From positions 186,001 through 250,000 of the IMG/VR virus record IMGVR_UViG_3300032157_000001: DNA of 64,000 nucleotides. One strand, 5' to 3'. Below the pieces are notes generated by a model. That model saw nothing but the letters and a program-made list of their open reading frames with translations, made no database searches and was not told the DNA's origin. This DNA comes from a virus. The translations under genes were made by a program, and so were the position numbers. This document shows, one piece after another, positions 29,973 through 48,893 of the stretch (the stretch's first letter is position 1; the number at the start of each line of letters is the position of its first letter).

Positions 29973-30286
29973 AAATTAATGCAACAGTTTGGTTATGTGA
30001 AAAGGATGATCATATCCATATCCCAATGGCTTTGGATGACTTAGCGGCACCACCATTTAAGATTGGAGACGTTATCCATTTGGACGTGGAAGAATTGTAC
30101 CCAAAGGATTACGAAAAGTACAAGCCAACGTTGCAGGAGCGCATGATTAAAAACAATGACGACATGATGAGGCTTTTGAATAGGAAGTCTGTCGTCATCA
30201 CCGAAGTCCATATCAGCACACGATTCAACACACTCAACACAGGGAGACTCACCTACGAATATTACTGTATTTTCACAGAAGAATAA
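29969..30286 (+). CDS. Hypothetical protein, GTG start
   Basis: 105 residues beginning at GTG in a GTGA overlap with the preceding stop. Mixed strands and helices; contains a PPFKIGDVIHLDVEELYP segment typical of a small beta barrel edge. No family. Confidence 0.6.
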   Translation: MKINATVWLCEKDDHIHIPMALDDLAAPPFKIGDVIHLDVEELYPKDYEKYKPTLQERMIKNNDDMMRLLNRKSVVITEVHISTRFNTLNTGRLTYEYYCIFTEE

Positions 30287-30591
30287 TGAAGAGAAAGATT
30301 GAACCAAAGATCAAACAAAAGTACCAATACGCAGTCGTTGTCTTAACTGAAAACCCAAATAGGGCAGCATACTTCGCATCATCATCATCGTCAACATCGA
30401 TGATAATTAATCAGACCACGCCCGACACAATGTTTATCAAGGTGTATAATACCCTTCAAAGCTATGCTGAGGATGGGTGGAGATTAAAAACCGATCTAAG
30501 AGTCAATGATGAAGTGATGCTCATATTTGAAAGGTATCATGATGATTTTGAAAAATATACCGACGAGATACTTGACTACATGAAAGACTAA
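30286..30591 (+). CDS. Small protein with the shared C-terminal tail
   Basis: 101 residues. Serine-rich segment FASSSSSTSM around 30-40, then KVYNTLQSYAEDGWRLKTD, a motif of the short DUF4177-like proteins. It ends FEKYTDEILDYMKD, the tail shared with many small proteins further right. The DUF4177-like call is from pattern only. Confidence 0.65.
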   Translation: MKRKIEPKIKQKYQYAVVVLTENPNRAAYFASSSSSTSMIINQTTPDTMFIKVYNTLQSYAEDGWRLKTDLRVNDEVMLIFERYHDDFEKYTDEILDYMKD

Positions 30592-30595
30592 CAAC

Positions 30596-30808
30596 ATGAA
30601 GCCAATTGAGTATAAAGTCGAAAAATTTGAGCACTATATAGGTCAATATGAACTTCAAAAATTTTTTGATAAAATGTCCGAAGAAGGGTGGATATACAAA
30701 GAATGTCTTGGTAAACATGATGGCTATCCTATGTATCTCTTCTACAAATTCGATGCACAATTTCTTCAATACAATAGAGAAGTAACTGAATACATAAAGC
30801 ACGAATGA
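30596..30808 (+). CDS. Small DUF4177-like protein with the shared C-terminal tail
   Basis: 70 residues: YKVEKFEHYIGQYELQKFFD and MSEEGWIYKECLG resemble the DUF4177 pattern. The end, FLQYNREVTEYIKHE, is the recurrent tail. Adjacent to a protein with the same two-part build. Confidence 0.65.
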   Translation: MKPIEYKVEKFEHYIGQYELQKFFDKMSEEGWIYKECLGKHDGYPMYLFYKFDAQFLQYNREVTEYIKHE

Positions 30809-31155
30809 AAAACAAAGCAACAACACACGTGAACTTTCTTCACGTTGAACCCAACTCACAATTTTACACCGATCTAAAGCAAATAGAAACATCGCTGCAA
30901 TTCAGTCCAGTAGATCGTGAATATATTTTGGTTGGCATCCAAAACTCAATTAAACAGGGCTACAGGATCGTTGGGCCGGAACCAGTACTGGCAGTGGGTG
31001 ACATCATTGTTTACATGCCAAAGCACGATTTGCCGATGATCGGCAGACTGATTTCTGTCACCTCAAAGAGATTCAAATTTGAGGTCAGCATGGGCACCAA
31101 GGGCTGGAAAGTCAAATCAACTAAGGATCGAAGCAAATTGTTCAAAATTCGTTAG
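30805..31155 (+). CDS. Hypothetical protein
   Basis: 116 residues, ATGA-coupled. The C-terminal half looks like a small beta barrel (VGDIIVYMPKHDLPMIGRL, then KRFKFEVSMG). A perfect CCAGTACTGG (30982-30991) encodes part of EPVLAVG. Ends with TAG. No family. Confidence 0.65.
   Translation: MKNKATTHVNFLHVEPNSQFYTDLKQIETSLQFSPVDREYILVGIQNSIKQGYRIVGPEPVLAVGDIIVYMPKHDLPMIGRLISVTSKRFKFEVSMGTKGWKVKSTKDRSKLFKIR
30982..30991. repeat. CCAGTACTGG palindrome, copy 3
   Basis: Perfect copy in the 30805-31155 gene, read in a different codon frame from copies 2 and 4. Confidence 0.7.
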
Positions 31156-31187
31156 TTTTCTTACATGAGCAACATTTTAGGGGAATT

Positions 31188-31197
31188 TTACGTATAA
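31188..31197 (+). promoter_or_regulatory. Phage-type promoter (perfect TTACGTATAA)
   Basis: Perfect consensus; the first ATG (31217) is 19 nt downstream, so this unit has a short leader. Confidence 0.65.
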
Positions 31198-31216
31198 TTG
31201 CGTAAAAACCTCTAAT

Positions 31217-31558
31217 ATGAACAAAATCGTCGTAGACAATGCACAATTTACACTGTGCTACCTCTTAATAGCCTCTGACGGGAGTGTCGGAGAGACCGAA
31301 AAAAACGTCTTTTTAGACGTTGTTTCCAGAATTGGTGGATTCACCAAGTCCTATTCCGAATCTGTGTTTAATGCAATGCACAGGTTCACAAAATCACTTA
31401 ATTACAAACAAGCCGTCGAATCGCTTTCGCAAGCCAACGACGAGCAAAAAAGAAAAACCATCGAATTGCTGAGGGAGTTATCCTTTGCGGATAAGACTTA
31501 TCACAAAGATGAGGTCAAATTCATCCTTGGCGTTCAGAAGGATTTACAACTAGTATGA
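31217..31558 (+). CDS. TerB-like helical protein
   Basis: 113 residues, all helical. YLLIASDGSVGETEKNVFLDV (15-35) matches the acidic A-x-D-G-x-V-x-x-x-E motif of TerB-type domains found in tellurite/stress and phage-defence-linked systems. The domain is thought to bind metal or act in membrane-linked signalling. A short single-domain version, so assignment is moderate. Confidence 0.6.
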   Translation: MNKIVVDNAQFTLCYLLIASDGSVGETEKNVFLDVVSRIGGFTKSYSESVFNAMHRFTKSLNYKQAVESLSQANDEQKRKTIELLRELSFADKTYHKDEVKFILGVQKDLQLV

Positions 31559-31842
31559 ATTGGAAAGTAGAAAAATTAACTAAGGGTGAGTCGTTTGTTA
31601 CCTCAGAAAAGGGAAACTCGATGATACCCTTAATTCACAGTGGTCAGGATCATAGGCTGGCACCCATCACATGGGAGGAATGCAAGCCCGGAGATATAGT
31701 GTTCTGTAAGGTCTCTGGTCGCTATTACACCCACCTTGTTAAAGCGACAGACATACACCGTGGCTGTCTCATATCGAACAACAGAGGCCGTTTAAATGGC
31801 TGGACAAAGCATGTGTTTGGAATTGTGGTTGAAGTTTTGTAA
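31555..31842 (+). CDS. S24/S26 peptidase-fold protein
   Basis: 95 residues. GNSMIPLIHSGQ (21-32) has the G-x-S-M-x-P nucleophile loop, PGDIVFCKVSGRYYTHLV (about 45-62) matches the following strand pair, and ISNNRGRLNGW resembles the end of the domain. The general-base Lys is not certain. Signal-peptidase/LexA-type autoproteolysis is possible, as is a non-proteolytic relic. ATGA-coupled to TerB-like. Confidence 0.7.
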   Translation: MNWKVEKLTKGESFVTSEKGNSMIPLIHSGQDHRLAPITWEECKPGDIVFCKVSGRYYTHLVKATDIHRGCLISNNRGRLNGWTKHVFGIVVEVL

Positions 31843-31873
31843 CTTCATCCATTCAATAACCAAAAATAAAACC

Positions 31874-32500
31874 ATGTATCTCATGCGAGTTTTTATCACA
31901 CTCATATTGTTTGTGCTACTGGCAAGCAATATGGGCATCAAAGAAGAAAGTATTTCTCCAAGTTGTTTGCAGATGGACATCTTTATCATTGGAGACTTTT
32001 CAACAAGTATCGACGGTAATGAAAGATTTGTTGCCGATGCTATGCTTGAATTCACGGATCGATTTGATCTCTCAGACTATGGACTCAAAATTGGTATTAT
32101 CGGATTCGGTAGCGAAGCATCTCTCATTACACCACTCACCTCTGATAGAGAGGTAATCATTAGCGGCATTAATAAATATCTTGAAGATGAAGATGGTGGA
32201 ACGACCAATATGACTGCAGCACTCAACATGGGTCTGGCAGAATTCTATTCGAAAAGTGCTCGACCTGACTATAGAAAATTGATTGTGCTAATCTCTGATG
32301 GTGATCCGGACAGTTCAAATGAAGTGTATGCACTGGCAAGTCAAATCAAATCTATGGGTATTGGTATCTGTGGTGTATTGGTACAGGCTTCGGTTAATAA
32401 ACCAGAGTATATGAGAATTATTTCCTCTGAGTTTTGTTATGTTGAATCTGATTATAAGAATTTAGTGTCTGAACTACAAAAACTAGATATATGCATGTAA
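31874..32500 (+). CDS. Membrane-anchored or exported von Willebrand factor A protein
   Basis: 208 residues from the ATG at 31874. An N-terminal hydrophobic segment (VFITLILFVLLASNM) serves as signal or anchor. The vWA MIDAS is complete: D41-x-S43-x-S45, a Thr in GGTTNMTAA, and Asp in ISDGDPD. vWA domains bind metal and protein partners. Outside the cytoplasm this could act at the envelope. No MoxR-type ATPase partner is nearby. Confidence 0.82.
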   Translation: MYLMRVFITLILFVLLASNMGIKEESISPSCLQMDIFIIGDFSTSIDGNERFVADAMLEFTDRFDLSDYGLKIGIIGFGSEASLITPLTSDREVIISGINKYLEDEDGGTTNMTAALNMGLAEFYSKSARPDYRKLIVLISDGDPDSSNEVYALASQIKSMGIGICGVLVQASVNKPEYMRIISSEFCYVESDYKNLVSELQKLDICM

Positions 32501-32814
32501 GTGGAAAATTTAAGGTCAACTATGACGATCAGTTATGGGATGTGGTAGATAGAATTTCTTCCACATTATCAAAGTTTGATTTGGCCATTAATGAACTTGA
32601 TGGGGGAGATGGATTTAATGAATATGAAATCGTTCCTAAGCAGTTCACAAAAGAAAAAGAGACGGCGTATGAATATGAAGTTTTGTTCGATTCTACGCCA
32701 GAATGCTCGATTCAGATACACGGATGGTATCCAATTGCCACCAATAGAATCGTTAAGCCAGAGAACATTGAGAAGTATATAAGCGATGGCATTCTTAGAC
32801 GTATAAAAAAATAA
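32491..32814 (+). CDS. Hypothetical protein
   Basis: 107 residues, overlaps the vWA gene by 10 nt. Contains an acidic centre (NELDGGDGFNEYE) and a strand-rich second half. No family. Confidence 0.6.
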   Translation: MHVSGKFKVNYDDQLWDVVDRISSTLSKFDLAINELDGGDGFNEYEIVPKQFTKEKETAYEYEVLFDSTPECSIQIHGWYPIATNRIVKPENIEKYISDGILRRIKK

Positions 32815-32828
32815 ATTTTAAGAATCGC

Positions 32829-32859
32829 TTGACAATCGTTAAAATCTAAATTAATTTTG
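32829..32859 (+). promoter_or_regulatory. Host-type promoter (TTG-N20-TAATTTTG)
   Basis: TTG at 32829-32831 (within TTGACA), a 20-nt spacer and TAATTTTG at 32852-32859: the best Bacteroidetes-type promoter in the window. It drives the monocistronic ParB-like gene. Confidence 0.7.
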
Positions 32860-32910
32860 TTACCTCTTTATTCCGAATCTCGGAAGAGTTAAACAACTTA
32901 ATTAATTACT

Positions 32911-33765
32911 ATGCAAACATTAACGAATGCTCACGAGTTGGTCACCAAAGTTGGTGTCACTCAGAGACAAGTAACAGTTACTCCCGCCTTAGCGGAACAG
33001 TGGCTCGAAGTAAACACACGCAACAGAAAGCTTAAAGAAGACAATCTTCGAACTCTCACGGCTCAAATGTTGGGTGACACATTTCAATCTCTCAACGGTC
33101 AGACTATCGTATTCTCTCAAAGCGGAATTCTCCTTGATGGCCAGCACAGACTCCAAGCAATCATTAACTCCGGAAAAACTTACGAGTTTGTCGTGGTTGA
33201 TGGTGTAAGTGATGAAGCATTCACAACTATTGATTTGGGTGTGAAGAGAAAGAGTCGTGATGTTTTTCAAATTGAGGGCATTGCTTATGCCAACGGTATC
33301 TCTGCAGCCGTTTCCTTCTATTTGAAATTCAAGAACAACGTGAACTCTTTGAGCAGCGGCCCCATCTACCGTAACATTACGATGGAAGACACGCTGGAAG
33401 CATACCAGCAGCACTCCGACTTGTTTCAAAACTTGTATGAGAAGTCTTTGATCTACAACAAGAAGATGAAAATCTTAACTCCCTCACAGATCACCGGCTT
33501 GATGGCTCACACAGTTCTTCATTCGAAATTCGGTTCAAGATGCTTGAACGAATTCTGGACACCTCTGTTCACCGGAGTAAAGGCCAGCGACCAGATTAAT
33601 CTCCTTCGTAACAAGTACATCCAAACGCTTGGAATGTCGAAGGCGAAGAGTGCAAACATTCAGCACAAGATCGCTTGGTTGGTCGTTTCCTACAACAACC
33701 ATTTCAATGGTAAAACTCAGCAACGTCTGGTCTTCCAAGGGCCGAAGTTACCCGAATTTATGTAG
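32911..33765 (+). CDS. ParB/Sulfiredoxin-fold protein
   Basis: 284 residues. The N-terminal domain carries LLDGQHRLQAIINSG (about 74-88), the ParB/Srx nucleotide-binding loop, preceded by VNTRNRKLKEDNLRTL and followed by the strand FTTIDLGVKRKSRDVF. The C-terminal 170 residues are helical. Phage proteins of this type are often annotated as ParB-like nucleases; DNA binding, CTP/ATP use or nuclease activity is not shown here. It stands alone between a host-type promoter and a terminator, hinting at early expression. Confidence 0.85.
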   Translation: MQTLTNAHELVTKVGVTQRQVTVTPALAEQWLEVNTRNRKLKEDNLRTLTAQMLGDTFQSLNGQTIVFSQSGILLDGQHRLQAIINSGKTYEFVVVDGVSDEAFTTIDLGVKRKSRDVFQIEGIAYANGISAAVSFYLKFKNNVNSLSSGPIYRNITMEDTLEAYQQHSDLFQNLYEKSLIYNKKMKILTPSQITGLMAHTVLHSKFGSRCLNEFWTPLFTGVKASDQINLLRNKYIQTLGMSKAKSANIQHKIAWLVVSYNNHFNGKTQQRLVFQGPKLPEFM

Positions 33766-33792
33766 GATTTCGTTTTGAAATGAATATCAAAA

Positions 33793-33822
33793 TCCCCATC
33801 TTTACCCGATGGGGATTTTTTT
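33793..33822 (+). terminator. Intrinsic terminator after the ParB-like gene
   Basis: TCCCCATC (33793-33800) pairs with GATGGGGA (33808-33815) around a 7-nt loop, followed by seven Ts. The next ATG begins at the last T. Confidence 0.9.
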
Positions 33823-34188
33823 ATGACAGATATTGACTATCTCTTACTGTATGCATATATCAAGACTGAAGATCATGAGTTGCGCAATGCGCTCTATCAT
33901 AACAGACTGGATGAAGCACTCAACATACTTCTTGTTGAGATAAGTCAACGAAACATCCATTTCAAAAATCTAACACGTGGATATGGTATCAGACCAGATC
34001 ACGTTATAGAGGAAACACTATCACATTTGGTGGAGCATGTTGTAAAGTACAGACCATACAAATGTGCATCAAAACCACATACTATGTTGCGTGGGTATAT
34101 AACCACCATTGTTCGCGGGTACTGGTGTGACATGTTCGCAAGAACAAGAAATGAACGAAAAAATTTCAACCGATCAGATTATGAATAA
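33823..34188 (+). CDS. Hypothetical protein with possible sigma region-2-like segment
   Basis: 121 residues. The C-terminal half (HVVKYRPYKCASKPHTMLRG, YITTIVRGYWCDMFARTRNE) has the spacing of an ECF or T4 gp55-type region 2: aromatic/Lys helix, I-x-x-I-V-R, D, then R-x-R-x-x-R-K. There is no region 4. If real it could be a candidate for reading the TTACGTATAA promoter, but the match is weak. ATG abuts the terminator's U-tract. Confidence 0.5.
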   Translation: MTDIDYLLLYAYIKTEDHELRNALYHNRLDEALNILLVEISQRNIHFKNLTRGYGIRPDHVIEETLSHLVEHVVKYRPYKCASKPHTMLRGYITTIVRGYWCDMFARTRNERKNFNRSDYE

Positions 34189-34197
34189 CCTAATCAA

Positions 34198-34503
34198 ATG
34201 GAAGAAGAGAAAAAAATAGATCAACAGAAATATCCGGGGTATAGACCTGATGACACCAGATTTGATGAGCATCATCGATCCCAAGGATTAATGACCAACC
34301 ACGAATTCTTTACCAGCAATGGGCCGGGAGGTTTCTATGAAGGAATGGAGTGGGATGAGAAAAAAAAGGAGTGGGTCTTAAATGCTGAGAACCAACGTAG
34401 AGAACGAGAAGCAAAAGAAAAATGGTATTGCTTTAAATGTGAAGCACACAAATCATTCTGCGAATGCAACGATCAATCATCATATAATGACAACGATTTT
34501 TAA
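34198..34503 (+). CDS. Small acidic/Cys protein
   Basis: 101 residues; charged N-terminus and a C-terminal CFKCEAHKSFCEC cluster that could bind zinc. The stop overlaps the next start. Confidence 0.6.
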   Translation: MEEEKKIDQQKYPGYRPDDTRFDEHHRSQGLMTNHEFFTSNGPGGFYEGMEWDEKKKEWVLNAENQRREREAKEKWYCFKCEAHKSFCECNDQSSYNDNDF

Positions 34504-35000
34504 TGTTAGATATACACCCATACAAACAGAGTGACGATAGCCTATGTGGCCCATCAGTAATTAAGATGGTGCTACAGTATTACGGTATCATCGCAGCAGA
34601 ATTAGATATAGCGGAGAGATGTGGACACACATACCAATTTGGATGTGATGACCTTGGAATGAAGAGAGCGTTGGAGTCATATGGAATGGATGTTACCATA
34701 AAGAACAACTGCACTTTCGACGACATCCAGTACTGGCTTTCGCGACAAGTACCAGTGATAGTAGATTGGTTCAGCAGTGGATATAATGTTGGCGTGAATG
34801 ATCCACCCAATGGTCACTCATCAATAGTGATTGAGATGGACAACACATACATCTACCTGCTTGACCCGGAATTCGGAGGCATTCGTAAAATGCTTCGCGA
34901 CGATTTTATGAGATGTTGGTTTGATTGGAAGAATTCTCCCATCATCATTAATTGGGAAGACATGATCCTACGACAAATTATAGTTGCACTACCAAAATGA
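34503..35000 (+). CDS. C39-like papain-fold cysteine peptidase
   Basis: 165 residues. Catalytic triad candidates are C15 in SLCGPSVIKM, H105 in NGHSSIVI and D121 in YLLDPE, with Gln9 in YKQSDD as oxyanion residue, the classic C39 layout. There is no signal peptide or transporter domain, so it is a free cytoplasmic (or virion) enzyme. Possible roles are cleaving a phage precursor or a host peptide. A perfect CCAGTACTGG lies at 34737-34746. Confidence 0.82.
   Translation: MLDIHPYKQSDDSLCGPSVIKMVLQYYGIIAAELDIAERCGHTYQFGCDDLGMKRALESYGMDVTIKNNCTFDDIQYWLSRQVPVIVDWFSSGYNVGVNDPPNGHSSIVIEMDNTYIYLLDPEFGGIRKMLRDDFMRCWFDWKNSPIIINWEDMILRQIIVALPK
34737..34746. repeat. CCAGTACTGG palindrome, copy 4
   Basis: Perfect copy within the C39-like peptidase gene (part of Ile-Gln-Tyr-Trp-Leu). 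Confidence 0.7.
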
Positions 35001-35818
35001 AAACCATAAAACAAGATTGGGTAAACGACTACCTTTCCACTCAATTGATATTTACATCTGGCCATCCATCTAACAACAAGTATTTGAATCTTGGGGATGA
35101 CGATGAAATTGTGTTTAGATTTATTGAATTGGATGGACAGTTCATATATTTTGCTACAGTAGTGTCAACATCTGACGATGCTGCAAATAATATTGAGGCC
35201 GCAATCTCAGATAATAGAAGATTTGCTCAGTACTTTGATGTATTCCCTAATTTTTTTATTCTTCTTATAAAAGACGATGAGGAATTTTATGCGATAATCA
35301 GAGATCACAAAGCAATGCGGATTAATCTTCTGAGCTTTTTTCAAAATTTTATACCGACTATTGGTGAAAACATCGGTACATTTAAAGCCGTTAACAAATC
35401 AGTCAACGACATCTTTCAATCTTGGACAAGAATCAATTTGTCGAAATATGCGGTGATCTCAGATTTGGATGCAATTTGTTTTGTTGATGGTTCTCCAATA
35501 CTGTTTGAACTTAAAAGAGTTGAAGAGTCAATTGAGGAATGGTTGCCATACATGGATGATGCATCTATTTATCGACGACAGCTTACAATAGCTAAAAGGT
35601 TTGGTGGTAAATTTAGATTGATTGCATATAACGCATATGATGAGGAAGGTCGTGTTGCGTTTTTTACTAAGGTGAATGTATCAAAGGAACGGATAACGGC
35701 AATCAAATTAATTCTACCGAAAGAATATGTCTTATTAAAAAAGGATGTGGATTGGCAATCGTTTCGTGATGTAACTTCAATTTCTTCAGACAGAAGACGA
35801 GTTAAAAGCATGATATAA
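34997..35818 (+). CDS. PD-(D/E)XK-type nuclease-like protein
   Basis: 273 residues from the ATGA junction at 34997. The C-terminal half has D158 in SDLDAICF and FELKR (E171-x-K173), with ASIYRRQLTIAKRF after it, matching the D-x(n)-E-x-K core of PD-(D/E)XK nucleases. The N-terminal 130 residues are a separate domain without a known match. Substrate unknown; host DNA breakdown or recombination are options. Confidence 0.7.
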   Translation: MKTIKQDWVNDYLSTQLIFTSGHPSNNKYLNLGDDDEIVFRFIELDGQFIYFATVVSTSDDAANNIEAAISDNRRFAQYFDVFPNFFILLIKDDEEFYAIIRDHKAMRINLLSFFQNFIPTIGENIGTFKAVNKSVNDIFQSWTRINLSKYAVISDLDAICFVDGSPILFELKRVEESIEEWLPYMDDASIYRRQLTIAKRFGGKFRLIAYNAYDEEGRVAFFTKVNVSKERITAIKLILPKEYVLLKKDVDWQSFRDVTSISSDRRRVKSMI

Positions 35819-35820
35819 TC

Positions 35821-36192
35821 ATGGAAGTGTTTCGAGTTATCGTTGCTGGTAGTCGCACATTCTACGACTATGAGCTTCTGAAAAGTAAGCTCGATAAATT
35901 CTTGTCCAACATCAAAGTACCAATTGAAATTGTTTCCGGGAGAGCAAAGGGTGCAGATCAGTTAGGTGAGCGATACGCCGATGAGCGTGGATATAAAGTC
36001 AAGATGTTTCCCGCACAGTGGACTAAATACCATAGGAAAGCTGGCCCAATACGTAATGAACAGATGGCTCAATATGTTTCACCAGATGGTGCTTGTGTTG
36101 TCTTTTGGGACGGTATAAGCAGCGGAAGTGAACACATGATTGAAACAGCCAAAACATATAAACTTAAATTACGGATAGTTCAATATGAGTAG
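35821..36192 (+). CDS. SLOG-superfamily DUF2493 protein
   Basis: 123 residues. VIVAGSRTFYDYE (6-18), IVSGRAKGADQLGERYA (37-53) and the late VVFWDGISSGSEHMIETA fit the DUF2493/YspA family of Rossmann-like SLOG nucleotide sensors. SLOG domains bind nucleotide-derived ligands in several antiviral systems. In a phage the protein might sequester or process such a signal; this is inference. Confidence 0.85.
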   Translation: MEVFRVIVAGSRTFYDYELLKSKLDKFLSNIKVPIEIVSGRAKGADQLGERYADERGYKVKMFPAQWTKYHRKAGPIRNEQMAQYVSPDGACVVFWDGISSGSEHMIETAKTYKLKLRIVQYE

Positions 36193-36454
36193 CTTGATCA
36201 TAGAAATAGGCATTGAACCCCTTGGCCCCTCACCTAGCTGTACAATTGATTTGATTACAAAGCAATTGAATTGGCACATCTACAGATTCAATAGTAACAA
36301 AGATATACCGTTGGGTCGTGGTAATTTTAACATCAGAACGGATGATGGAAAATTGTATGAGTTTAAGGATTCTGAGATTAGGCGAGATGGTGAATCTTAT
36401 TACGTCCAGATAGGTTATGTTATCAGTGTAACTGAAGTCGCAATCGATTCCTGA
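36185..36454 (+). CDS. Small hypothetical protein
   Basis: 89 residues, strand-rich (SLIIEIGIEPLGPSPSC; YYVQIGYVISVTEVAI). Overlaps the SLOG gene by 8 nt. No family. Confidence 0.6.
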   Translation: MSSLIIEIGIEPLGPSPSCTIDLITKQLNWHIYRFNSNKDIPLGRGNFNIRTDDGKLYEFKDSEIRRDGESYYVQIGYVISVTEVAIDS

Positions 36455-36513
36455 ACTATAGTTCTTTCTATTCTTGATTATCGCGCCATAATTCACTATT
36501 TATGTATAGTGGT

Positions 36514-36965: not shown

Positions 36966-36974
36966 GAGAGAAAT

Positions 36975-37033: not shown

Positions 37034-37044
37034 TAAATGTCCAA

Positions 37045-37457: not shown

Positions 37458-37459
37458 AA

Positions 37460-37654: not shown

Positions 37655-37656
37655 GT

Positions 37657-41351: not shown

Positions 41352-41573
41352 ATGATAGTAATTCTCATAGTTTTCACTCTTTTTGTTTTTGGTGTGGTGA
41401 CGTATATTATACGTCTTAATCTTGATCCTCATTTGAAATATGAAGAACAAATGAAAAGATCGATTATAGAGGAACAAAAAAAGATGTGGGATCGTATTTT
41501 CTTTTTGGATAGAGAAATTAAAATTGAGGACAAGAAATATCTTGATGAGGTAGAAAAATATAAGAAAGAATGA
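41352..41573 (+). CDS. Single-span membrane protein with coiled coil
   Basis: 73 residues: N-terminal span (MIVILIVFTLFVFGVVTYII) then a charged helix with KYEEQMKRSIIEEQKKMW. Spanin-like size and layout, but there is no outer-membrane partner here. ATGA-coupled to the next gene. Confidence 0.65.
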   Translation: MIVILIVFTLFVFGVVTYIIRLNLDPHLKYEEQMKRSIIEEQKKMWDRIFFLDREIKIEDKKYLDEVEKYKKE

Positions 41574-42814
41574 AAAAGATACATATATACGGCGGAGGAA
41601 CATTTACATATGTTCGAACACATTTGGCATTAGCAATGCCAGCGTTTGGTGGAACTGCAAGAAGACTTGCAGAGATCATCCAAATTGATGAAAGATTTAA
41701 GAATATGAGTGTTGAGACTCATCTCACAAAAATGGCTGATTCAAATTCAGACATCGTCACAAATGATGATGTATTTGAACACGTCAAATTAAGACGGGAC
41801 GACCCCGAAACAAAGATCATCATCTTCAACGTTGGTATGTGTGATTATCAAGGAACGATTTTACCAAAGGACGATAATGAACACGTATCATCCGGTAAGT
41901 ATGCAGAGAGATTGAAGAGTATGGATGGGCCACAGAGGATGTTGTTAGTTCCAGAGCAAAAAATTATCAAGTACATACGCAATAAACGTAAAGACATTTT
42001 CTTAATTGCATTCAAAACAACTTCGGGTGCTGAAGAAAAGCAACAATATCTTGCTGGTCTAAAGTTGCTGAAGGAGAACTCCTGCAATCTTGTGTTCGCG
42101 AATGACGTGGTGACCAGAATGAATATGATTATAACACCAGAAGAAGCAACATATCATATCGGCGATAATCGAGATGATGTGTTGAAGCAATTGGTTGATA
42201 TGATCTGGCATCGTTCACAACTAACATTTACCAGATCAACTGTTGTTGATGGTCAGCCAGTACTGTGGGATAGTCCATTGGTCTATCCGGCATTAAGAAC
42301 GGTGGTCAACTATTGCATTGATCAGAACGCATACAAGCCATTCAATGGTGCTACTGTTGGACACTTTGCTTGTAAGATTGGTGAGCGTGAATTCCTTACC
42401 TCTATACGCAAGAGTAACTTCAATGAATTGAAGACAAAAGGATTGGTGCGTGTTACTACTGATGGTGATGATAGTGTGATTGCATACGGCGCAAAGCCAT
42501 CTGTTGGTGGTCAGTCACAACGTATTGTATTCACAGAGCATCCAGAGTATGATTGTATTGTGCATTTTCATTGTCCTAAACTTGAAACATCATTAGTGCC
42601 TGTCATTTCACAGCGGGAGTATGAGTGTGGCTCTCACCAATGTGGACAGAACACTTCAAGAGGACTAACGAAGTTTGGAAACTTGTCGGCTATCATGCTT
42701 GACAATCATGGGCCTAACATCGTATTCAACCATAACATCAACCCACAAGAAGTTATTGACTTCATCGTTAATAACTTTGATCTGCAAGGTAAAACGGGAG
42801 GACTTGTATCATGA
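41570..42814 (+). CDS. CoaB-like (DFP) domain fused to class II aldolase/adducin-like domain
   Basis: 414 residues. The N-terminus (IHIYGGGTFTYVRTHLALA, then GGTARRLAEII and KIIIFNVGMCDYQG) has the Rossmann-like pattern of phosphopantothenoylcysteine synthetase-type proteins, in which VRTHLALA parallels the cofactor loop. From about residue 225 a class II aldolase/adducin fold follows, with ACKIGEREFLTSIRKSNF and the metal-type IVHFHCPKL. The pairing of these folds is unusual and implies a small-molecule reaction, perhaps nucleotide or cofactor related. A CCAGTACTG site lies at 42257. Confidence 0.7.
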   Translation: MKKIHIYGGGTFTYVRTHLALAMPAFGGTARRLAEIIQIDERFKNMSVETHLTKMADSNSDIVTNDDVFEHVKLRRDDPETKIIIFNVGMCDYQGTILPKDDNEHVSSGKYAERLKSMDGPQRMLLVPEQKIIKYIRNKRKDIFLIAFKTTSGAEEKQQYLAGLKLLKENSCNLVFANDVVTRMNMIITPEEATYHIGDNRDDVLKQLVDMIWHRSQLTFTRSTVVDGQPVLWDSPLVYPALRTVVNYCIDQNAYKPFNGATVGHFACKIGEREFLTSIRKSNFNELKTKGLVRVTTDGDDSVIAYGAKPSVGGQSQRIVFTEHPEYDCIVHFHCPKLETSLVPVISQREYECGSHQCGQNTSRGLTKFGNLSAIMLDNHGPNIVFNHNINPQEVIDFIVNNFDLQGKTGGLVS

Positions 42815-42987
42815 GTAAGAAAAGTAAAGAACCCAATTATGACTTATACGATTCCTTCGCTGAAGATCGTAAGGAATTTGCTAAGGCAGCAAAGAAGCTC
42901 ATAAAGAAACTTAAGAAGTCTAAAAAGGCTGCGATAAAGTTTTTGAAGGATATTGGTGTGAGACCAGACGGAACAATGAAACGATGA
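42811..42987 (+). CDS. 58-residue Lys-rich protein
   Basis: A short ORF (MSKKSKEPNYDLYDSFAED...) with ATGA junctions at both ends. The centre is a Lys/Ala helix (KAAKKLIKKLKKSKKAA), so nucleic-acid contact is plausible. Confidence 0.6.
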   Translation: MSKKSKEPNYDLYDSFAEDRKEFAKAAKKLIKKLKKSKKAAIKFLKDIGVRPDGTMKR

Positions 42988-43385
42988 CAAGTATCACAAA
43001 AACATTAGTTGACCGCATTATTACGAAGTGTTTATCTGACGACCTTTTGTCGCCAATGTATCTTAATTTAAGAACTAAACATGATCACATTAGTTTTGGC
43101 CATTGCTATGTAGCTACTGAAGCGGCTTATCATATATACGGTAAGTTTCACGGATATAAGCCATACGTGATGAGAGTTGAACGAGGGAAGTATACGCATT
43201 GGTTTCTAAAGGATTCAAATAATAACATCATTGATCCGACTATAGGTCAGTACAAGGGCAAGACTCCAAAGTATGCTAAAGCAAAGTGTACGGGGTTCTT
43301 GACTAAACAACCGAGTAAGAGAGCACAAATAATAATTGATAGGTATGAATGTTCGAGGAAGACACACATCGATAAGATTGGTTGA
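42984..43385 (+). CDS. Cys/His/Asp papain-like phage protein
   Basis: 133 residues. GHCYVATEAAYHIYG (39-53), THWFLKD (about 70-76) and NIIDPTIGQ (about 80-88) give a Cys-His-Asp order typical of papain/transglutaminase-like amidases; this compact form recurs in phage genomes without known function. Basic C-terminus. Confidence 0.6.
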   Translation: MTSITKTLVDRIITKCLSDDLLSPMYLNLRTKHDHISFGHCYVATEAAYHIYGKFHGYKPYVMRVERGKYTHWFLKDSNNNIIDPTIGQYKGKTPKYAKAKCTGFLTKQPSKRAQIIIDRYECSRKTHIDKIG

Positions 43386-43575
43386 TCCTAGGGTGTTGGA
43401 TTTTCGTCACAAGAGGGCGATATTCAAATACAAGTATTTAATTAATAAGGCCTCTTATTTTACGATCACTGCTAAATCCGTGGTGTCAGCAGAGAAAGCA
43501 GCATTGCGAAGAGCAAAACGAGCGAAGGATAATTTGGGCACTGTGAAATTACTAACGATAACCAAAATTTTATGA
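43345..43575 (+). CDS. Small basic protein
   Basis: 76 residues from the ATG at 43345, overlapping the preceding gene by 41 nt. Basic helix-rich C-terminus (AEKAALRRAKRAKDNLG). ATGA-coupled downstream. No family. Confidence 0.55.
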   Translation: MNVRGRHTSIRLVDPRVLDFRHKRAIFKYKYLINKASYFTITAKSVVSAEKAALRRAKRAKDNLGTVKLLTITKIL

Positions 43576-43769
43576 ATCAAGAGAATAAGAATTATATATA
43601 TGACAAAATGAAATCATTGGCCAATGATGATAAAGTTCCCATCAGACGTGGCTGCAATGTAGAGGGTGGGTGCTTCTGTAGCGGGAAGTGTCAGGAAATT
43701 GTCGGATGGCGAGATAAAACTCTCCAAGAAAAATACCCAACAAGAATTAACTTGAATGGAACCAACTAG
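43572..43769 (+). CDS. Small Cys-cluster protein
   Basis: 65 residues with RRGCNVEGGCFCSGKCQEI (25-43): C-x6-C-x-C-x3-C, a likely metal knot. Overlaps the following gene, which also carries a Cys cluster. Ends with TAG. Confidence 0.6.
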   Translation: MNQENKNYIYDKMKSLANDDKVPIRRGCNVEGGCFCSGKCQEIVGWRDKTLQEKYPTRINLNGTN

Positions 43770-43965
43770 CTTTGAAGAGGAAAGAATTAGGGAGATGCTT
43801 AATTCGGAAATAGAGTACGAAAAAAGAATTTATGGTGGTATTCTTGGTGAAGACAATATCTGTCCTGTGAATAATGAATTGTGCGATGATGAGTGTTGTG
43901 TTCCGGGAGGTACTTGCAATTTGTGGGGATGGGAATTAAATGGAATAGAACCAGATCACCAGTAG
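43756..43965 (+). CDS. Small Cys-cluster protein
   Basis: 69 residues; a charged N-terminal helix, then ICPVNNELCDDECCVPGGTC near the C-terminus (five Cys). Pairs with the preceding Cys-cluster protein. Function unknown. Confidence 0.6.
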   Translation: MEPTSFEEERIREMLNSEIEYEKRIYGGILGEDNICPVNNELCDDECCVPGGTCNLWGWELNGIEPDHQ

Positions 43966-44001
43966 ACTAAATATTTATGATCATGTTTAATAAGTAAGAT
44001 T

Positions 44002-44190
44002 TTGAGAAGCAGGGCACAAAAAACTTTTGGATTGTGGTTCAAATTCTCCATACTGGTTTATATCATTGTGGGATTTACATTTTTTCCATCTGATCACACC
44101 ATATACAACTCTGCTGCTACTTTTGCGGGTATGGTTTGTGTGGTAACACTTCTAAACCTATTCAAACCCAATGGGAAACGTAACCAGTGA
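44002..44190 (+). CDS. Two-span membrane protein, TTG start
   Basis: 62 residues from TTG 44002. Two hydrophobic segments (FKFSILVYIIVGFTFF; SAATFAGMVCVVTLLNLF) and a basic tail. No ATG is available in a better position, so the start is uncertain. Overlaps the next gene by 20 nt. Confidence 0.5.
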   Translation: MRSRAQKTFGLWFKFSILVYIIVGFTFFPSDHTIYNSAATFAGMVCVVTLLNLFKPNGKRNQ

Positions 44191-44464
44191 GTACTACCCA
44201 ACAGGAGACATTGACCATGATATTGTTGGGGAATTTTTTAAGTCTGTCTATGAGGCAATGAATAAACCCGACCACTGCTTGGTCGAAGTTAAAGACTTCA
44301 GAAATTCAGACACCAGATTGTCGATACTTTGGTACAACAACAAAGCAAAAGCATTTGTAATTGAATCAAGAACAGAATTCAACAACATCAACATTATTAA
44401 GGGAGAAATTGATGATCAAGGAACGGAAGATATGGCCACGATACCACGTAATCATGAGAATTAA
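44171..44464 (+). CDS. Small hypothetical protein
   Basis: 97 residues, mixed fold (GEFFKSVYEAMNKPDHCLVE; FRNSDTRLSILWYNNK). Leads into the first member of the small-protein family. No family. Confidence 0.6.
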   Translation: MGNVTSEYYPTGDIDHDIVGEFFKSVYEAMNKPDHCLVEVKDFRNSDTRLSILWYNNKAKAFVIESRTEFNNINIIKGEIDDQGTEDMATIPRNHEN

Positions 44465-44624
44465 AATGGTTCTTGGTGCATATCATTACGATATATGGGA
44501 CGATATTGAGGCTAAATTTCTTGACGATCCAAACATGAGTACTCGATTTCTCGATGTGAAGACAACAGTACTCAATGAAGAGTACTACAGCTACATGCGT
44601 TCACTACACGACTATATAGAGTAA
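44454..44624 (+). CDS. Short WD/YxxxVxxYL family protein
   Basis: 56 residues from the ATG at 44454. It carries YDIWDDIEAKFLDD (WD centre) and the C-terminal VLNEEYYSYMRSLHDYIE. It is the leftmost full member of the small-paralogue family and one of the shortest. Confidence 0.65.
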   Translation: MRIKMVLGAYHYDIWDDIEAKFLDDPNMSTRFLDVKTTVLNEEYYSYMRSLHDYIE

Positions 44625-44626
44625 TC

Positions 44627-45139
44627 ATGACACTTTCACAATATAAGAAGGCCGTTGAACTTCACAAGAAAATGGTCAGAGACTTTAAGAAGGAACAGAA
44701 GAGATGGGAAGCTCTTAGAGTTGGAGATATTGTGTTTGAGCATGGATCATGGGATGACCTTTTCAAAATGGTTATTGAAGAAATTAATGTCAATGAGAGA
44801 TATGCTATTTGTACTGATCATTCTCAAGATAAGATTAAAGTTAAGGTAAGTGGATTCTCCACAATCGGAGAATTAAAAGAGGCTGGTGAAAGAATTGATT
44901 GGATTCGAATACTTCATGATGATAACGACATCATGTTGCCGAACATGTTCTATGTTAAAAAGAAGTACAAGGATAAATTTTTAAAAACTGTTAATGCAGA
45001 CACAGACTACTCTGCCATTGGTGCGTGGGATAATTATCCAAAATATCTTAATGGGATCAACGGCAGACGGTGCGATTATTCTAAAGAATTATTATTTGAG
45101 GATGATGTTGTTTATTGTGTTCTGGTGATGGATTGTTAA
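44627..45139 (+). CDS. Hypothetical protein
   Basis: 170 residues. N-terminal Lys-rich helix (YKKAVELHKKMVRDFKKEQK), then a possible SH3-like barrel (LRVGDIVFEHGSW), then a mixed C-terminus with NADTDYSAIGAWDNYP. No known domain. Last gene before the next promoter. Confidence 0.65.
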   Translation: MTLSQYKKAVELHKKMVRDFKKEQKRWEALRVGDIVFEHGSWDDLFKMVIEEINVNERYAICTDHSQDKIKVKVSGFSTIGELKEAGERIDWIRILHDDNDIMLPNMFYVKKKYKDKFLKTVNADTDYSAIGAWDNYPKYLNGINGRRCDYSKELLFEDDVVYCVLVMDC

Positions 45140-45155
45140 ACATTTTTAGCTAAAT

Positions 45156-45165
45156 TTACGTATAA
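45156..45165 (+). promoter_or_regulatory. Phage-type promoter (perfect TTACGTATAA)
   Basis: Ends 6 nt before the ATG at 45172; heads the operon to 49.8 kb. Confidence 0.75.
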
Positions 45166-45171
45166 CCAGCT

Positions 45172-45465
45172 ATGGAAAAGACTGACAAAAATCTTGAGTT
45201 ATTGATAGCATTATCAATCATGCTGCACCCACATTTGGGGGCTGATAATTACACAGCCAAATTAATCACAGCACTGTACACGGACAAATCAAAACTATCC
45301 AATCGAGACTATTTTGATCTTGGAAAATATTACGACCGGATGGTTGTAGTAATTCAAACTGAAATCACAGATCAGAATATTAAGTGGGAATATTTGAAAG
45401 CCGTAATGGCTATGAAACAAAAATGTTACGGGCCATATTGTTTAAGTGGCGTATCGTTGACCTAG
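45172..45465 (+). CDS. Helical hypothetical protein
   Basis: 97 residues, first gene behind the promoter. Helical with HPHLGADNYTAKLITALY in the first half. No family. One base separates it from the DUF262 gene. Confidence 0.65.
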   Translation: MEKTDKNLELLIALSIMLHPHLGADNYTAKLITALYTDKSKLSNRDYFDLGKYYDRMVVVIQTEITDQNIKWEYLKAVMAMKQKCYGPYCLSGVSLT

Positions 45466-45466
45466 C

Positions 45467-45997
45467 ATGAAAGAACTTAAACTTAGAAACATTAAAACAA
45501 CGCTCCCATTCACGCTGAATAAGGGGCTTTCTGTTTTTAACATACATCAGTTACTTGCATATAGGGACTACGAATTGGATTTCGATGTCTTCCTCCCCTC
45601 AAAGAAGATGAACTTGCAGAGACCATTTGTGTGGACTCTCGAACAGAAACAAGAATTGATTATTTCATTACTTAAGGGTATTGAAATCTCTACTATGGCC
45701 ATGATAAGCTATGATCATAAGATCATGCGGATAATTGATGGTAAGCAAAGATTATCAACTTGGTTGTCATTTGCCAAAAATGAATTCCCGATAGTTTGGA
45801 ATGGAGAGACCTACATGTATGAAAATTTTGATGGCGATGCAAAGTATGTCATCAACCATACTTATATCAAAGCTGATGTGGCATATGAATACCCGGACAG
45901 AATGATTTCCGATGAATGGAAAATCAAATGGTTTGAGTTGATCAACTTTGCTGGTACTAAACAAGACGCTGACCACTTAGAATTATTGAAAAGATGA
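45467..45997 (+). CDS. DUF262-domain protein (GmrSD N-terminal-like)
   Basis: 176 residues: MNLQRPFVWTLEQKQELIISL (48-68), then IIDGKQRLSTWLSF (89-102). This is the DUF262 pattern, a ParB-like fold that is the NTPase/nucleotide-binding part of GmrSD type IV restriction enzymes and BREX/Dnd-related proteins. Here it stands alone, without the DUF1524 HNH half, and uses DGKQR in place of the commoner DGQQR. It might interfere with such a host enzyme. A Lar-type gene follows two genes later. Confidence 0.82.
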   Translation: MKELKLRNIKTTLPFTLNKGLSVFNIHQLLAYRDYELDFDVFLPSKKMNLQRPFVWTLEQKQELIISLLKGIEISTMAMISYDHKIMRIIDGKQRLSTWLSFAKNEFPIVWNGETYMYENFDGDAKYVINHTYIKADVAYEYPDRMISDEWKIKWFELINFAGTKQDADHLELLKR

Positions 45998-46212
45998 AAA
46001 TAATCAACACATTTATTGGTTTGTATTTTAGAGATAGTTATGGTGAGATACAAACAAACATAAATAGAGGGGTGCCGATTTATGTGAAGATACACGTACT
46101 TGAGGATGGAACTTTCATGAAGGAGTCCTACGTGAATGAACGCACTACTCTTGAACCAATCTCAAGAGCAACCGCAGAGAACTATTTTTCAAACATGAAA
46201 TCAACATCGTGA
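45994..46212 (+). CDS. Small beta-rich protein
   Basis: 72 residues, ATGA-coupled to both the DUF262 gene and the Lar-type gene (GTG start). Strand-rich (FIGLYFRDSYGEIQ; VPIYVKIHVLEDG). No family. Confidence 0.6.
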   Translation: MKIINTFIGLYFRDSYGEIQTNINRGVPIYVKIHVLEDGTFMKESYVNERTTLEPISRATAENYFSNMKSTS

Positions 46213-46514
46213 ATTTATTGCCTTGTCCCTTTTGTGGTGGTGTCGATATTGAATTCCTGACTTTTGATTACCAAGAATCGAAAAATCGTGCAATGAGTGA
46301 TCGTGAATCTGGTGGTATGGTTTGTGGTGATTGTGGGGCCGTTGGGGGTACAATGAATATTCAAATTGACTATAAGGATGGTGTGATTATAACTGACTAT
46401 AAAGCCATCGAAGAGATTTCAAGAGGGAGATGGAACAGACGATCATATAGTCATACCGAAGGGTTGATAGAAATTCAAAAATACGATAAAGAACTTAAAG
46501 ACTACATAAAATGA
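46209..46514 (+). CDS. Lar-family zinc protein with the shared C-terminal tail
   Basis: 101 residues from GTG 46209 (GTGA junction). LLPCPFCGG (3-11), then MVCGDCGAVGG, then a W-N-R-R end is the Lar restriction-alleviation pattern. Family members such as Rac Lar modulate host restriction-modification. Unlike standard Lar it continues into SHTEGLIEIQKYDKELKDYIK, the tail shared by the small-paralogue family. It shares the operon with DUF262. Confidence 0.8.
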   Translation: MNLLPCPFCGGVDIEFLTFDYQESKNRAMSDRESGGMVCGDCGAVGGTMNIQIDYKDGVIITDYKAIEEISRGRWNRRSYSHTEGLIEIQKYDKELKDYIK

Positions 46515-46825
46515 AATGGTTCAAGCGTACTATTGTTGGTAGCCAACACCACGAATACAGAAGTGAGGACTCGCGCATATACTATTTTGACATAGAGAAA
46601 CATCCATCAGGATGGATCAGGTTATACGACCTCCGGGAGAATCCGGCTAAGTACTATCTCTTTAATACCCTTGGTGAAGCAAAGAAGATTGCCATTGCAT
46701 CGATAAAGGACAAGACAGTACTAGAACCATACCTTGATCACAAGTGGTATAAAGATTCGTTTGCTTGTGTAGAAGTCATAAGACAGGCCGAGGAACTAAT
46801 TGCCAAGCTTAAAAACCAATCATGA
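46511..46825 (+). CDS. Hypothetical protein
   Basis: 104 residues, ATGA-coupled on both sides. Basic start (MKWFKRTIVGSQ), strands then a C-terminal helix ending IRQAEELIAKLKNQS. No family. Confidence 0.6.
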   Translation: MKWFKRTIVGSQHHEYRSEDSRIYYFDIEKHPSGWIRLYDLRENPAKYYLFNTLGEAKKIAIASIKDKTVLEPYLDHKWYKDSFACVEVIRQAEELIAKLKNQS

Positions 46826-47061
46826 AACGCAAACTCATTAGTGTTAAACGTTACCATGTTATCCTACACACCAAGACCTTAGATTTTAATGACAAGGACT
46901 TGTATGCGGTGTGGGACGAATCTATGGGCAAGTTTGTGTGTACTCCAATAAGGACTATATCTCATTTGAATATACTGGCAAATAAACTTAACACAGAGTA
47001 CGAGGCATATATCAAGGAGGTAAGTGATTATTTAGGGACATATGTCCCAATAAACTCATGA
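46822..47061 (+). CDS. WD/YxxxVxxYL family protein
   Basis: 79 residues and a clear example of the family: RYHVILH strand, LYAVWDESMGKFV centre, and ANKLNTEYEAYIKEVSDYLG tail, followed by 7 extra residues. ATGA junctions at both ends. Function unknown. Confidence 0.7.
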   Translation: MKRKLISVKRYHVILHTKTLDFNDKDLYAVWDESMGKFVCTPIRTISHLNILANKLNTEYEAYIKEVSDYLGTYVPINS

Positions 47062-47336
47062 CACACAAATTCGAAAATCTTTTCAACAAAGAACCTAAAT
47101 TCAATTGCCCCGTCTGTGATCAAGAACTACACACAGATTGGGTAGACATCGGCTTTGGTGCATACTCAGCACAAGTCTCTCCCTACGTTTGTGAAGCATG
47201 TGAATGGACTGAAAAAGGATGCTCAGTCTGTATTTATGAGAAATGTTTTAGTTGGGAGCGGTGCAAGGGAAGAGCACTGATTAACAATGCCGAGAAAAAA
47301 GAAACCGATCAATCCAATTCTGGAAAGTGTAGCTGA
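47058..47336 (+). CDS. Small multi-Cys zinc protein
   Basis: 92 residues with CPVC, CEAC and then CSVC, CFSWERC: enough for two zinc sites. Overlaps the next gene by 50 nt. No specific family. Confidence 0.6.
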   Translation: MTHKFENLFNKEPKFNCPVCDQELHTDWVDIGFGAYSAQVSPYVCEACEWTEKGCSVCIYEKCFSWERCKGRALINNAEKKETDQSNSGKCS

Positions 47337-47664
47337 AATTAGAAGACTCGAACTTAATTGCGAGATCAAATTAGCCTATAAACGTGCAAAAAAAGACCTT
47401 GGTGAGAACTTTGAAACTCACATGAAGGCCGTTGCCGAAGAAATTGTTGCCCTCCAAAAGTCTTGTAAACCCAAAATTTCTTATTATATTGCGGGTATTA
47501 TGCTGACTGTTCCACCTGCCGATGAGGTTGTGGATGAAGAAAGCAATGATGACTTTGCTTTTTATGCAATGCTTGTTAAGGCAGCAATAGGTTGGGGTTT
47601 GCTTAATGGACATGCAGATAAAAATAATCCATTTGTTGATGAGCTAAGAGAAGAAAATATGTAG
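47287..47664 (+). CDS. Helical hypothetical protein
   Basis: 125 residues, basic start (MPRKKKPINPILESVAEIRR) and helical to residue 60, acidic near the end (ADEVVDEESNDDF). No family. Confidence 0.6.
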   Translation: MPRKKKPINPILESVAEIRRLELNCEIKLAYKRAKKDLGENFETHMKAVAEEIVALQKSCKPKISYYIAGIMLTVPPADEVVDEESNDDFAFYAMLVKAAIGWGLLNGHADKNNPFVDELREENM

Positions 47665-47668
47665 TGAG

Positions 47669-47929
47669 ATGACGACAATTAATGAGATAATAGTAATTCG
47701 TACTCTTTTCACTCATGATGTTGAATTGTTTTGTCGTGAACATGATATATCGTATTACATCTTTAGTTCACCCTCTGAATGGAGAACGGCATATAACGTC
47801 AGAGCACAAGATATTTGTCTTCTCCAACTCCAAATTTATCTTGCAAGTCTTGAAAAGGATTTTGCAATCTACATGGAGACATTAGATGATTATGCAATGA
47901 TATACCCATCAATAGTGTACGCAGCATGA
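47669..47929 (+). CDS. Small protein with an internal copy of the tail motif
   Basis: 86 residues. Near the end, YLASLEKDFAIYMETLDDYA resembles the recurrent tail but is followed by 10 more residues. Its N-terminus lacks the RY strand. Possible divergent family member. Confidence 0.55.
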   Translation: MTTINEIIVIRTLFTHDVELFCREHDISYYIFSSPSEWRTAYNVRAQDICLLQLQIYLASLEKDFAIYMETLDDYAMIYPSIVYAA

Positions 47930-48180
47930 GTTACTGGTTTCAATTTACGTTAGTTTTTTTCTCAGTATTCATTGCGGATATTAGTTGGGCTATGTACTTC
48001 TACAAAATATCGCAAGGTAAAAGTATAGCTGCGGGTATTTGGGGGTCGGTGGTAACCATATTGGGAGCCTACACAATTTCTGAGTATGTTCATGATCCAA
48101 CATTCATTATAGCCGCAGCACTAGGTGGTGGAATTGGAACTATCGTTACTGTAGAGTATAACAAACGCAAGATGAAATGA
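47926..48180 (+). CDS. Three-span membrane protein
   Basis: 84 residues: hydrophobic 5-24 (FQFTLVFFSVFIADISWAMY), 35-50 and 60-76 (IIAAALGGGIGTIVTVEY). FIADISWAMYF and the late G-x-x-x-G-T pattern recall a small membrane protein common in large phages. Function unknown. Confidence 0.65.
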   Translation: MSYWFQFTLVFFSVFIADISWAMYFYKISQGKSIAAGIWGSVVTILGAYTISEYVHDPTFIIAAALGGGIGTIVTVEYNKRKMK

Positions 48181-48362
48181 AAACAAAACAAAAGAAAAAA
48201 TTGTCAACCATAACTTATAAAAGAGACAGCAAGCTCGATCTTCCCGAATTAGAAACACTCAAGAAGATTCAAACCATAAGCGAATATGTTTGTTTATGTG
48301 AAGAGTCTACGTATGATGACGGTAGCGAATCAGTAACGGTACAATATCACTTCAAAAGATGA
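48177..48362 (+). CDS. Small basic protein
   Basis: 61 residues, Lys-rich start (MKTKQKKKLSTITYKRDSK). ATGA-coupled both sides. No family. Confidence 0.55.
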   Translation: MKTKQKKKLSTITYKRDSKLDLPELETLKKIQTISEYVCLCEESTYDDGSESVTVQYHFKR

Positions 48363-48661
48363 AAATTGGAGATAATCTCTATGTAGAACTAACTAAATTG
48401 TTGGATCATATGAGTGATAAATATAGATATGCTCTTAAAACTAAAGCAGTCCCTTTAGATGAGGATAGAATGATGATAACATTTACTGCCTATGACAATT
48501 TACTCAAAAAAGAAGTATATTTTCCCGAAAGTCAGTCAGAGTTAATCAAGACCGTTTGTCTCATGAATGAAGAAGATAAATTTTACAACAAGAGTGTTAA
48601 CGAATACATAAATAATGTCGGCAACAAAGAAACCATACATACGCAGAAAGAGCAACAGTAA
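48359..48661 (+). CDS. WD/YxxxVxxYL family protein
   Basis: 100 residues. KYRYALKTKA strand, ITFTAYDNLLKKEVYF centre (YD in place of WD), tail MNEEDKFYNKSVNEYINN, followed by a short Gln-rich end. Overlaps the next gene by 47 nt. Confidence 0.65.
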   Translation: MKIGDNLYVELTKLLDHMSDKYRYALKTKAVPLDEDRMMITFTAYDNLLKKEVYFPESQSELIKTVCLMNEEDKFYNKSVNEYINNVGNKETIHTQKEQQ

Positions 48662-48893
48662 ATTCATTGCAATTTTTAACACACAAAATCGTGAATTTGC
48701 ACCTCTTCTGGTTACATATTGCCACACCAATGGCATTGGGTGTATTCTTGAAAAGACAACACCAACGGGGCATGATCGTTATGTGGTGAGTGGAAGAATA
48801 TCTCAAATAGAACAGGCCAAAGAATATATCAAAACAGCATACAACGAATTTTTACAATATAACAAAGAAGTAAGTCGCTATATAAAAAAATGA
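48615..48893 (+). CDS. Small protein with KH-like part and shared tail
   Basis: 92 residues. The first 70 (basic start, then FIAIFNTQNREFAPLLVTYC, VVSGRISQIEQAKEYI) resemble a small alpha/beta RNA-binding-like unit related to the 59295-59627 product. It ends FLQYNKEVSRYIKK, nearly the same tail as the 30596-30808 protein. Good evidence that the tail is a mobile module. Confidence 0.65.
   Translation: MSATKKPYIRRKSNSKFIAIFNTQNREFAPLLVTYCHTNGIGCILEKTTPTGHDRYVVSGRISQIEQAKEYIKTAYNEFLQYNKEVSRYIKK

Follow-up and report, generated by a model that had tools for sequence, protein, structure and literature searches.

The stretch of DNA analysed here, which we call the window, is 64,000 nucleotides long and comprises bases 186001-250000 of a 371,504-base virus record (IMG/VR IMGVR_UViG_3300032157_000001). 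Our subject is a short peptide segment, here termed the tail, that recurs near the C-termini of many small proteins. The record contains a gp23 major capsid protein gene at 1105-2757 and a phage tail sheath gene, and it encodes rIIA, rIIB, an Rnl1-type RNA ligase and a Dda-like helicase; this gene content therefore identifies the phage as a T4-like jumbo myovirus. The initial annotation had pointed out four open reading frames (ORFs), ending at 30591, 30808, 46514 and 48893, that close with a similar tail. All four ends and tails were confirmed, and the tails read, in order, FEKYTDEILDYMKD, LQYNREVTEYIKHE, IQKYDKELKDYIK and LQYNKEVSRYIKK. The four genes are as follows, in window coordinates, which are used throughout unless the genome or record is named.

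30286..30591, + strand: DUF4177-like protein; tail 30532-30588, RYHDDFEKYTDEILDYMKD
30596..30808, + strand: small protein, neighbour of 30286; tail 30746-30802, KFDAQFLQYNREVTEYIKH
46209..46514, + strand: Lar-type zinc protein; tail 46458-46511, EGLIEIQKYDKELKDYIK
48615..48893, + strand: KH-like alpha/beta protein; tail 48834-48890, TAYNEFLQYNKEVSRYIKK

The first two proteins had been described as a DUF4177-like pair. Both carry the tail, but the family label fared less well: 30286 scores 20.2 bits against DUF4177 (PF13783), under the Pfam cut-off of 25, and 30596 has no match to it. The Lar-type label stands, as 46209-46514 passes PF14354 with 31.9 bits against a cut-off of 28.6 (domain residues 2-78). 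This protein differs from ordinary Lar proteins in having about 23 extra residues after the WNRR domain end, and the three other phage Lar-like proteins examined lack the segment, as had been supposed. For 48615, Foldseek gave KH and Rpb11-like matches with a probability of ~0.9-1.0 but weak E values (at least 0.002), and Pfam sequence comparison gave no match to KH.

The tail is a segment of about 13 residues with the consensus [DE]-[F/Y/R]-x-x-Y-x-x-E-[VLI]-x-[DE]-[YFW]-[ILV]. It is carried by the four named proteins, by about 17 WD/LN-family or WD-like members and by about 15 other small proteins. We know of no described motif with this consensus and of no receptor for it. Literature searches, confined to an open-access library, turned up neither this tail nor small proteins containing gp23 fragments.

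We searched all 467 window ORFs with a hidden Markov model (HMM) built from WD-family tails only, using reversed ORFs as a control. Among the top non-seed matches were the C-termini of 48615, 47669, 46209, 30286, 48359, 41352, 30596 and 44361, while the reversed ORFs gave at most one match, at 3.4 bits. A second HMM, built from 15 tails at 270-324 kb of the record, retrieves window tails, and the window-trained model retrieves tails of that region in turn. In this cross-validation on called genes, 17 and 12 non-seed matches reached at least 7 bits, with 0 in reversed sequences. The matches fell in the last 30 residues in 13 of 17 and 8 of 12 cases, where 6.3 and 3.9 were expected (P ~0.001 and 0.016). 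These gene-based statistics cover about 218 kb of the record in stretches, the remainder being covered by profile search only.

A model-free, all-against-all comparison of C-termini grouped 40 proteins from the right part of this genome into one cluster. No other cluster here exceeds 6 members, and in relatives the maximum is 2 (G002) or 5 (G008). Some of the 40 proteins are chance members; for example, a DHFR at 326142(-) of the record grouped with the tails, although, as identified by eye, it probably has an ordinary DHFR end. Independent tail families were sought in the two relatives and none was found: the clusters there have at most 5 members, and several consist of full-length paralogues.

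In 346 genes from the right part of the genome, we counted 31 copies of a strict form of the motif, 23 of them in the last 20 residues of a protein and 8 at other positions. This corresponds to 3.17 copies per 1000 positions in the C-terminal 20 residues versus 0.24 elsewhere, a difference of about 13-fold. At C-termini, the strict motif was found 0 times in 72 genes of 1-60 kb and 0 times in 367 genes of two relatives. As the strict motif was derived from the same genes, the cross-validated figures are fairer. The comparison of internal with C-terminal copies, which had been proposed as a check, thus bears out the C-terminal bias, but the pattern originally written for the tail misses many members. 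At the level of sequence, these results confirm that the similarity among tails exceeds chance. The cross-validated HMMs and the C-terminus clustering also uphold the claim that one module stands at the C-terminal end of unrelated domains.

Besides the four named proteins, the tail was found in the window on the following proteins outside the WD family.

47669..47929, + strand: possible KH-like relative of 48615; tail 47846-47902, then 8 residues
48359..48661, + strand: small protein; tail 48560-48616, LMNEEDKFYNKSVNEYINN, then 14 residues
41352..41573, + strand: small protein with a hydrophobic N-terminus; tail 41514-41570, IEDKKYLDEVEKYKKE, a weak match
16350..16604, + strand: zinc-ribbon-like protein with two CxxC; ends DIERFKYLHEIKRFDQEGKND, which fits the tail motif

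Further zinc-ribbon-like tailed proteins were recognised by eye at 323800 and 324013 of the genome. The proteins at 47669, 48615 and 59295 may form a small KH-like family; the C-terminal helix of 59295-59627 is related but less regular.

The WD family is the largest tailed group, and nearly all of its members are tailed. Its WD/LN core without the tail has HMM matches of its own in this genome, but not in the examined stretches of relatives. A fold search with a WD model gave no match at E <= 0.001 in PDB or BFVD, and protein searches with 48615, 30286, 56665 and 59929 gave no usable relatives. The members in the window are listed below.

44361..44624, + strand: WD-family protein, start 44412 likelier; tail 44568-44621
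46822..47061, + strand: WD-family protein; tail 46984-47040
48890..49219, + strand: WD-family protein, internal tail; tail 49079-49135, then ~27 residues
49546..49809, + strand: WD-like protein; tail 49747-49806
52855..53157, + strand: WD-like protein; tail 53065-53154
55959..56285, + strand: WD-family protein; tail 56226-56282
56665..56925, + strand: WD-family protein; tail 56866-56922
56922..57161, + strand: WD-family protein; tail 57105-57158
57903..58235, + strand: WD-family protein; tail 58182-58232
58162..58536, + strand: WD-family protein, start 58222 likelier; tail 58444-58533
58539..58811, + strand: WD-family protein; tail 58719-58808
58808..59038, + strand: WD-like protein; tail 58973-59029
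59624..59932, + strand: WD-family protein; tail 59840-59929, second half degenerate
59929..60234, + strand: WD-family protein; tail 60142-60231, second half degenerate
60236..60604, + strand: WD-family protein; tail 60512-60601
60608..60907, + strand: WD-family protein; tail 60815-60904
61666..61953, + strand: WD-family protein; tail 61888-61944
62117..62524, + strand: coiled coil and WD-family domain; tail 62432-62521

The module had been described as C-terminal. The bias is real, but confinement to the C-terminus is not: in several proteins 8-36 residues trail the motif, and in two enzymes it is N-terminal. One of these lies in the window.

14672..16114, + strand: Dda-like helicase; N-terminal tail-like module 14690-14737, ENDAYIREVNDYFVSD

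The module of the helicase, ENDAYIREVNDYF, occupies residues 7-19, and the best 25 of 602 matched phage records for Dda homologues align from residue 23 or later. The other enzyme is a DUF4326 protein at 320329(-) of the genome, in which EDRRLYREQVNDYC precedes the methionine that matches the start of a homologue from a 735-kb phage (78% identity). A tRNA-like sequence, seen by eye, lies directly upstream of the start of the DUF4326 protein.

Two tailed proteins contain pieces of the major capsid protein. In 289956-290306(-) of the record, a match to residues 304-369 of the phage's own gp23 (42%, 5e-13) is followed by the tail YKDRRIYIKEIEDW. In 288819-289070(-), residues 3-48 match own gp23 71-116 (46%, 1e-7) and EFYAYDEELRIYVGEE follows. 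Against PF07068 (Gp23), 289956(-) gave a partial match of 32.7 bits, above the cut-off, whereas 288819(-) gave 20.8 bits, below it, its homology being supported by the BLAST match to own gp23 at 1e-7. On these comparisons both are gp23 homologues. Compared with gp23 itself, they are small proteins encoded away from the structural genes, and they keep just 40-70 residues of it at 42-46% identity. Judged by these matches, the N-terminal parts of the chimeras cannot be diverged WD domains, which means that the tail has been joined to sequences of separate origin. Weak gp23-like matches over 17-21 residues at 294220(-) and 306339(-) were not counted.

Pieces of gp23 also occur apart from the tail. 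Two further ORFs, 313192-313512(-) and 314119-314451(-), hold fragments corresponding to own gp23 residues 360-380 and 476-536; they belong to another cluster of proteins with a different N-terminal module. Relatives likewise have such fragments (L140, 94290-94796 in G005, and L141, 51275-51688 in G001; residues 375-472 and 340-370). Fragments of gp23 in separate small ORFs are thus recurrent, possibly as decoys for capsid-sensing defence. A second common module, N-terminal YDxxIxxMxxxEIExS, is found in about six small proteins with varied C-terminal parts, one of them with a gp23 fragment (313192-314177(-) and 171169-171564(+) of the record; window 43756-43965).

The tails are conserved as protein only. 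Counting from the consensus tyrosine as position 0, this residue is encoded by TAT in 15 cases and TAC in 14, and a second Tyr codon count gives 13:11. Of 1797 identical residues counted over all tail pairs, 885 have their codon in common, where 854 would be expected. Even the two tails most alike, those of 30596 and 48615, have DNA that is only 60% identical. As codon sharing is no higher than codon usage predicts, recent copying of the DNA is unlikely, as is a DNA or RNA element beneath the tail, and we rejected both. The codons make it likely that selection acts on the peptide, or that the motif arose more than once.

Positions -3, 0, +4, +7 and +8 are hydrophobic and lie on one face with heptad spacing, and -4, +3 and +6 are acidic. 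Position-specific information is highest at -4, 0, +4, +6 and +7, which agrees with heptad a/d spacing. In the AlphaFold2 (AF2) model of the WD protein 46822 (pLDDT 84), strands 11-16 and 27-32 are followed by a single helix, 46-73, that includes the tail. In that of the KH-like 48615 (pLDDT 77), the tail ends a 30-residue last helix, 62-91. Thus, in both models, whose folds differ, the tail is predicted to be the two-heptad amphipathic end of an unbroken last helix.

A refined profile, A2 (30 rows, threshold E <= 0.17), was run over the whole record. It matched 36 places, all at 181.7-324.1 kb, with none in the left half of the record and nothing left of 181 kb. Tails were not found at C-termini in 1-60 kb, where the gp23 and tail sheath genes lie; by sequence, then, the structural genes seen lack the tail. 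From these two results, the proposed test for enrichment in virion proteins is negative as far as sequence can show.

IMG/VR contains 80 loci whose gp23 is 70-83% identical, and another gene is shared at 50-64% by 9 further contigs. In 78 related records searched (23 + 9 + 46), many of them fragments and perhaps without the closest relatives, no convincing tail was found. The best matches, with E values of 0.006 (profile A1) and 0.016 (A2), are in G008, close to an N-terminus. At present sampling, the tail is thus lineage-specific. Two loci with gp23 relatives (74-77%) come from metagenome bins named Bacteroidota and Bacteroidales, a weak hint at a possible host group. In a scan of the window for Bacteroidota-type promoters, the control scored equally well.

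Two other features of the window were noted. A tRNA with anticodon CTA (called tRNA-Pyl by ARAGORN) at 4086-4159 (-) is a possible amber suppressor, yet TAG ends 18 of 124 called window genes. The sequence TTTTACGTATAA lies upstream of + strand genes three times (31186, 57879 and 60929) and may be a phage promoter.

We propose that the tail is a lineage-specific docking helix that ties varied effector domains to one putative partner, a reading to which the sequences and models lead us to give an even chance. A two-heptad amphipathic stretch would lengthen the final helix in about 35 small proteins encoded in the right half of the genome. It has been attached to unrelated domains (WD/LN, Lar, other zinc ribbons, KH-like, DUF4177-like and gp23 fragments) and stands N-terminally in two enzymes, the Dda helicase and the DUF4326 protein. 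The helix would be exposed and would bind one common partner, of the phage or the host, and diverse effector domains would thereby come to the same place. Docking is the best fit because conservation is at the peptide level, the domains are unrelated, placement at either end and trailing residues are tolerated, and the helix is one-faced. The tolerance of up to 36 trailing residues is what docking, and not a terminal signal, would predict. The docking-type tag of the initial annotation also fits the shared module, its protein-level conservation and its absence from the Lar, Dda and DUF4326 homologues examined. The tail resembles short linear interaction motifs and docking helices in being about 13 residues long, amphipathic, found at either end and conserved as protein; it differs in that a single phage lineage has it on dozens of proteins.

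Several points weigh against this proposal. No close relative with the tail was found from which to gauge its conservation over time. The motif was in part defined by eye, and single matches are weak (13-25 bits), so individual members may be chance. The WD-family tails share a common ancestry and therefore amount to one origin. Each N-terminal case comes from one sequence with a weak match (Dda 13.2 bits). Finally, the helix could instead cap the fold or serve self-association.

Self-association would mean that the helices pair as a short Tyr-rich coiled coil, giving homo- or hetero-oligomers without a receptor. The 3-4-3 hydrophobic spacing over two heptads, the unbroken last helix in both AF2 models and the encoding of dozens of tailed proteins side by side are in keeping with this. 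However, a coiled coil of two heptads would be short for stability, and the strong conservation of the Tyr and acidic positions points to a specific receptor surface; we consider self-association rather unlikely.

The fold-cap alternative is passive hitch-hiking, in which recombination within operons swaps the N-terminal parts of genes and keeps the 3' end of a WD-family gene. The retained end would supply the old stop codon and the start of the next gene, and capping a helix would be its only role. Such an origin would suit the standing of the WD family, nearly all tailed, as the largest group, as well as the dense operons with overlapping ends in which tailed genes lie, and the gp23 fragments show that such chimeras arise. 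Yet Y0, V/L+4 and Y+7 persist on several unrelated domains though the chimeras are old, as the lack of an excess of shared codons indicates, and two enzymes have N-terminal copies of the motif. We regard it as unlikely.

The closest known system is the capsid targeting sequence (CTS) of T4, which is N-terminal and leads into the scaffold core. Like the CTS, which serves highly diverse small phage proteins aimed at host defence (PMC3012670), the tail is one short conserved address with many cargoes; it differs in being mostly C-terminal and in the larger number and variety of its domains. As 23 of the 31 strict copies in the right part of the genome lie within 20 residues of the C-terminus, and the T4 signal is N-terminal, we do not class the tail as a CTS. 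A head-packaging tag of this kind, by which anti-defence proteins would enter the prohead and reach the next host with the DNA, is thus improbable, and the Dda helicase and nucleic-acid-type domains would be atypical head cargo. In its favour, one tailed protein is Lar-type (restriction alleviation) and two have gp23 pieces, and the internal proteins of T4 are diverse, small, anti-restriction proteins with only a short capsid targeting sequence in common (PMC3012670).

Localisation to a phage nucleus had also been suggested. The import system of nucleus-forming phages (Imp1/PicA) resembles the tail in sorting phage proteins selectively, but import there reportedly uses no terminal signals (PMC13282480), and the phage studied here is T4-like by its gp23, rII and Dda genes; the suggestion is not upheld. 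A C-terminal degradation signal limiting the lifetime of early proteins would suit a near-C-terminal place in small, probably early proteins, but is very improbable, as an ssrA-like degron occupies the very last residues, whereas here these differ, 8-36 residues can trail the motif and two enzymes carry it N-terminally.

In its most extended form, the docking helix would belong to a plug-in effector system with one receptor and one helix, in which new effectors are made by fusing fragments to that helix; pieces of gp23 fused in this way would serve at the docking site as decoys or competitors. We offer this as a doubtful extension. A 2026 review counts among the open questions what the many small, uncharacterised jumbo phage genes do (PMC13282480). 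If dozens of small proteins share one docking helix, a single common place of action could be assigned to them, and the gp23-fragment chimeras would show the assembly of small proteins from existing genes.

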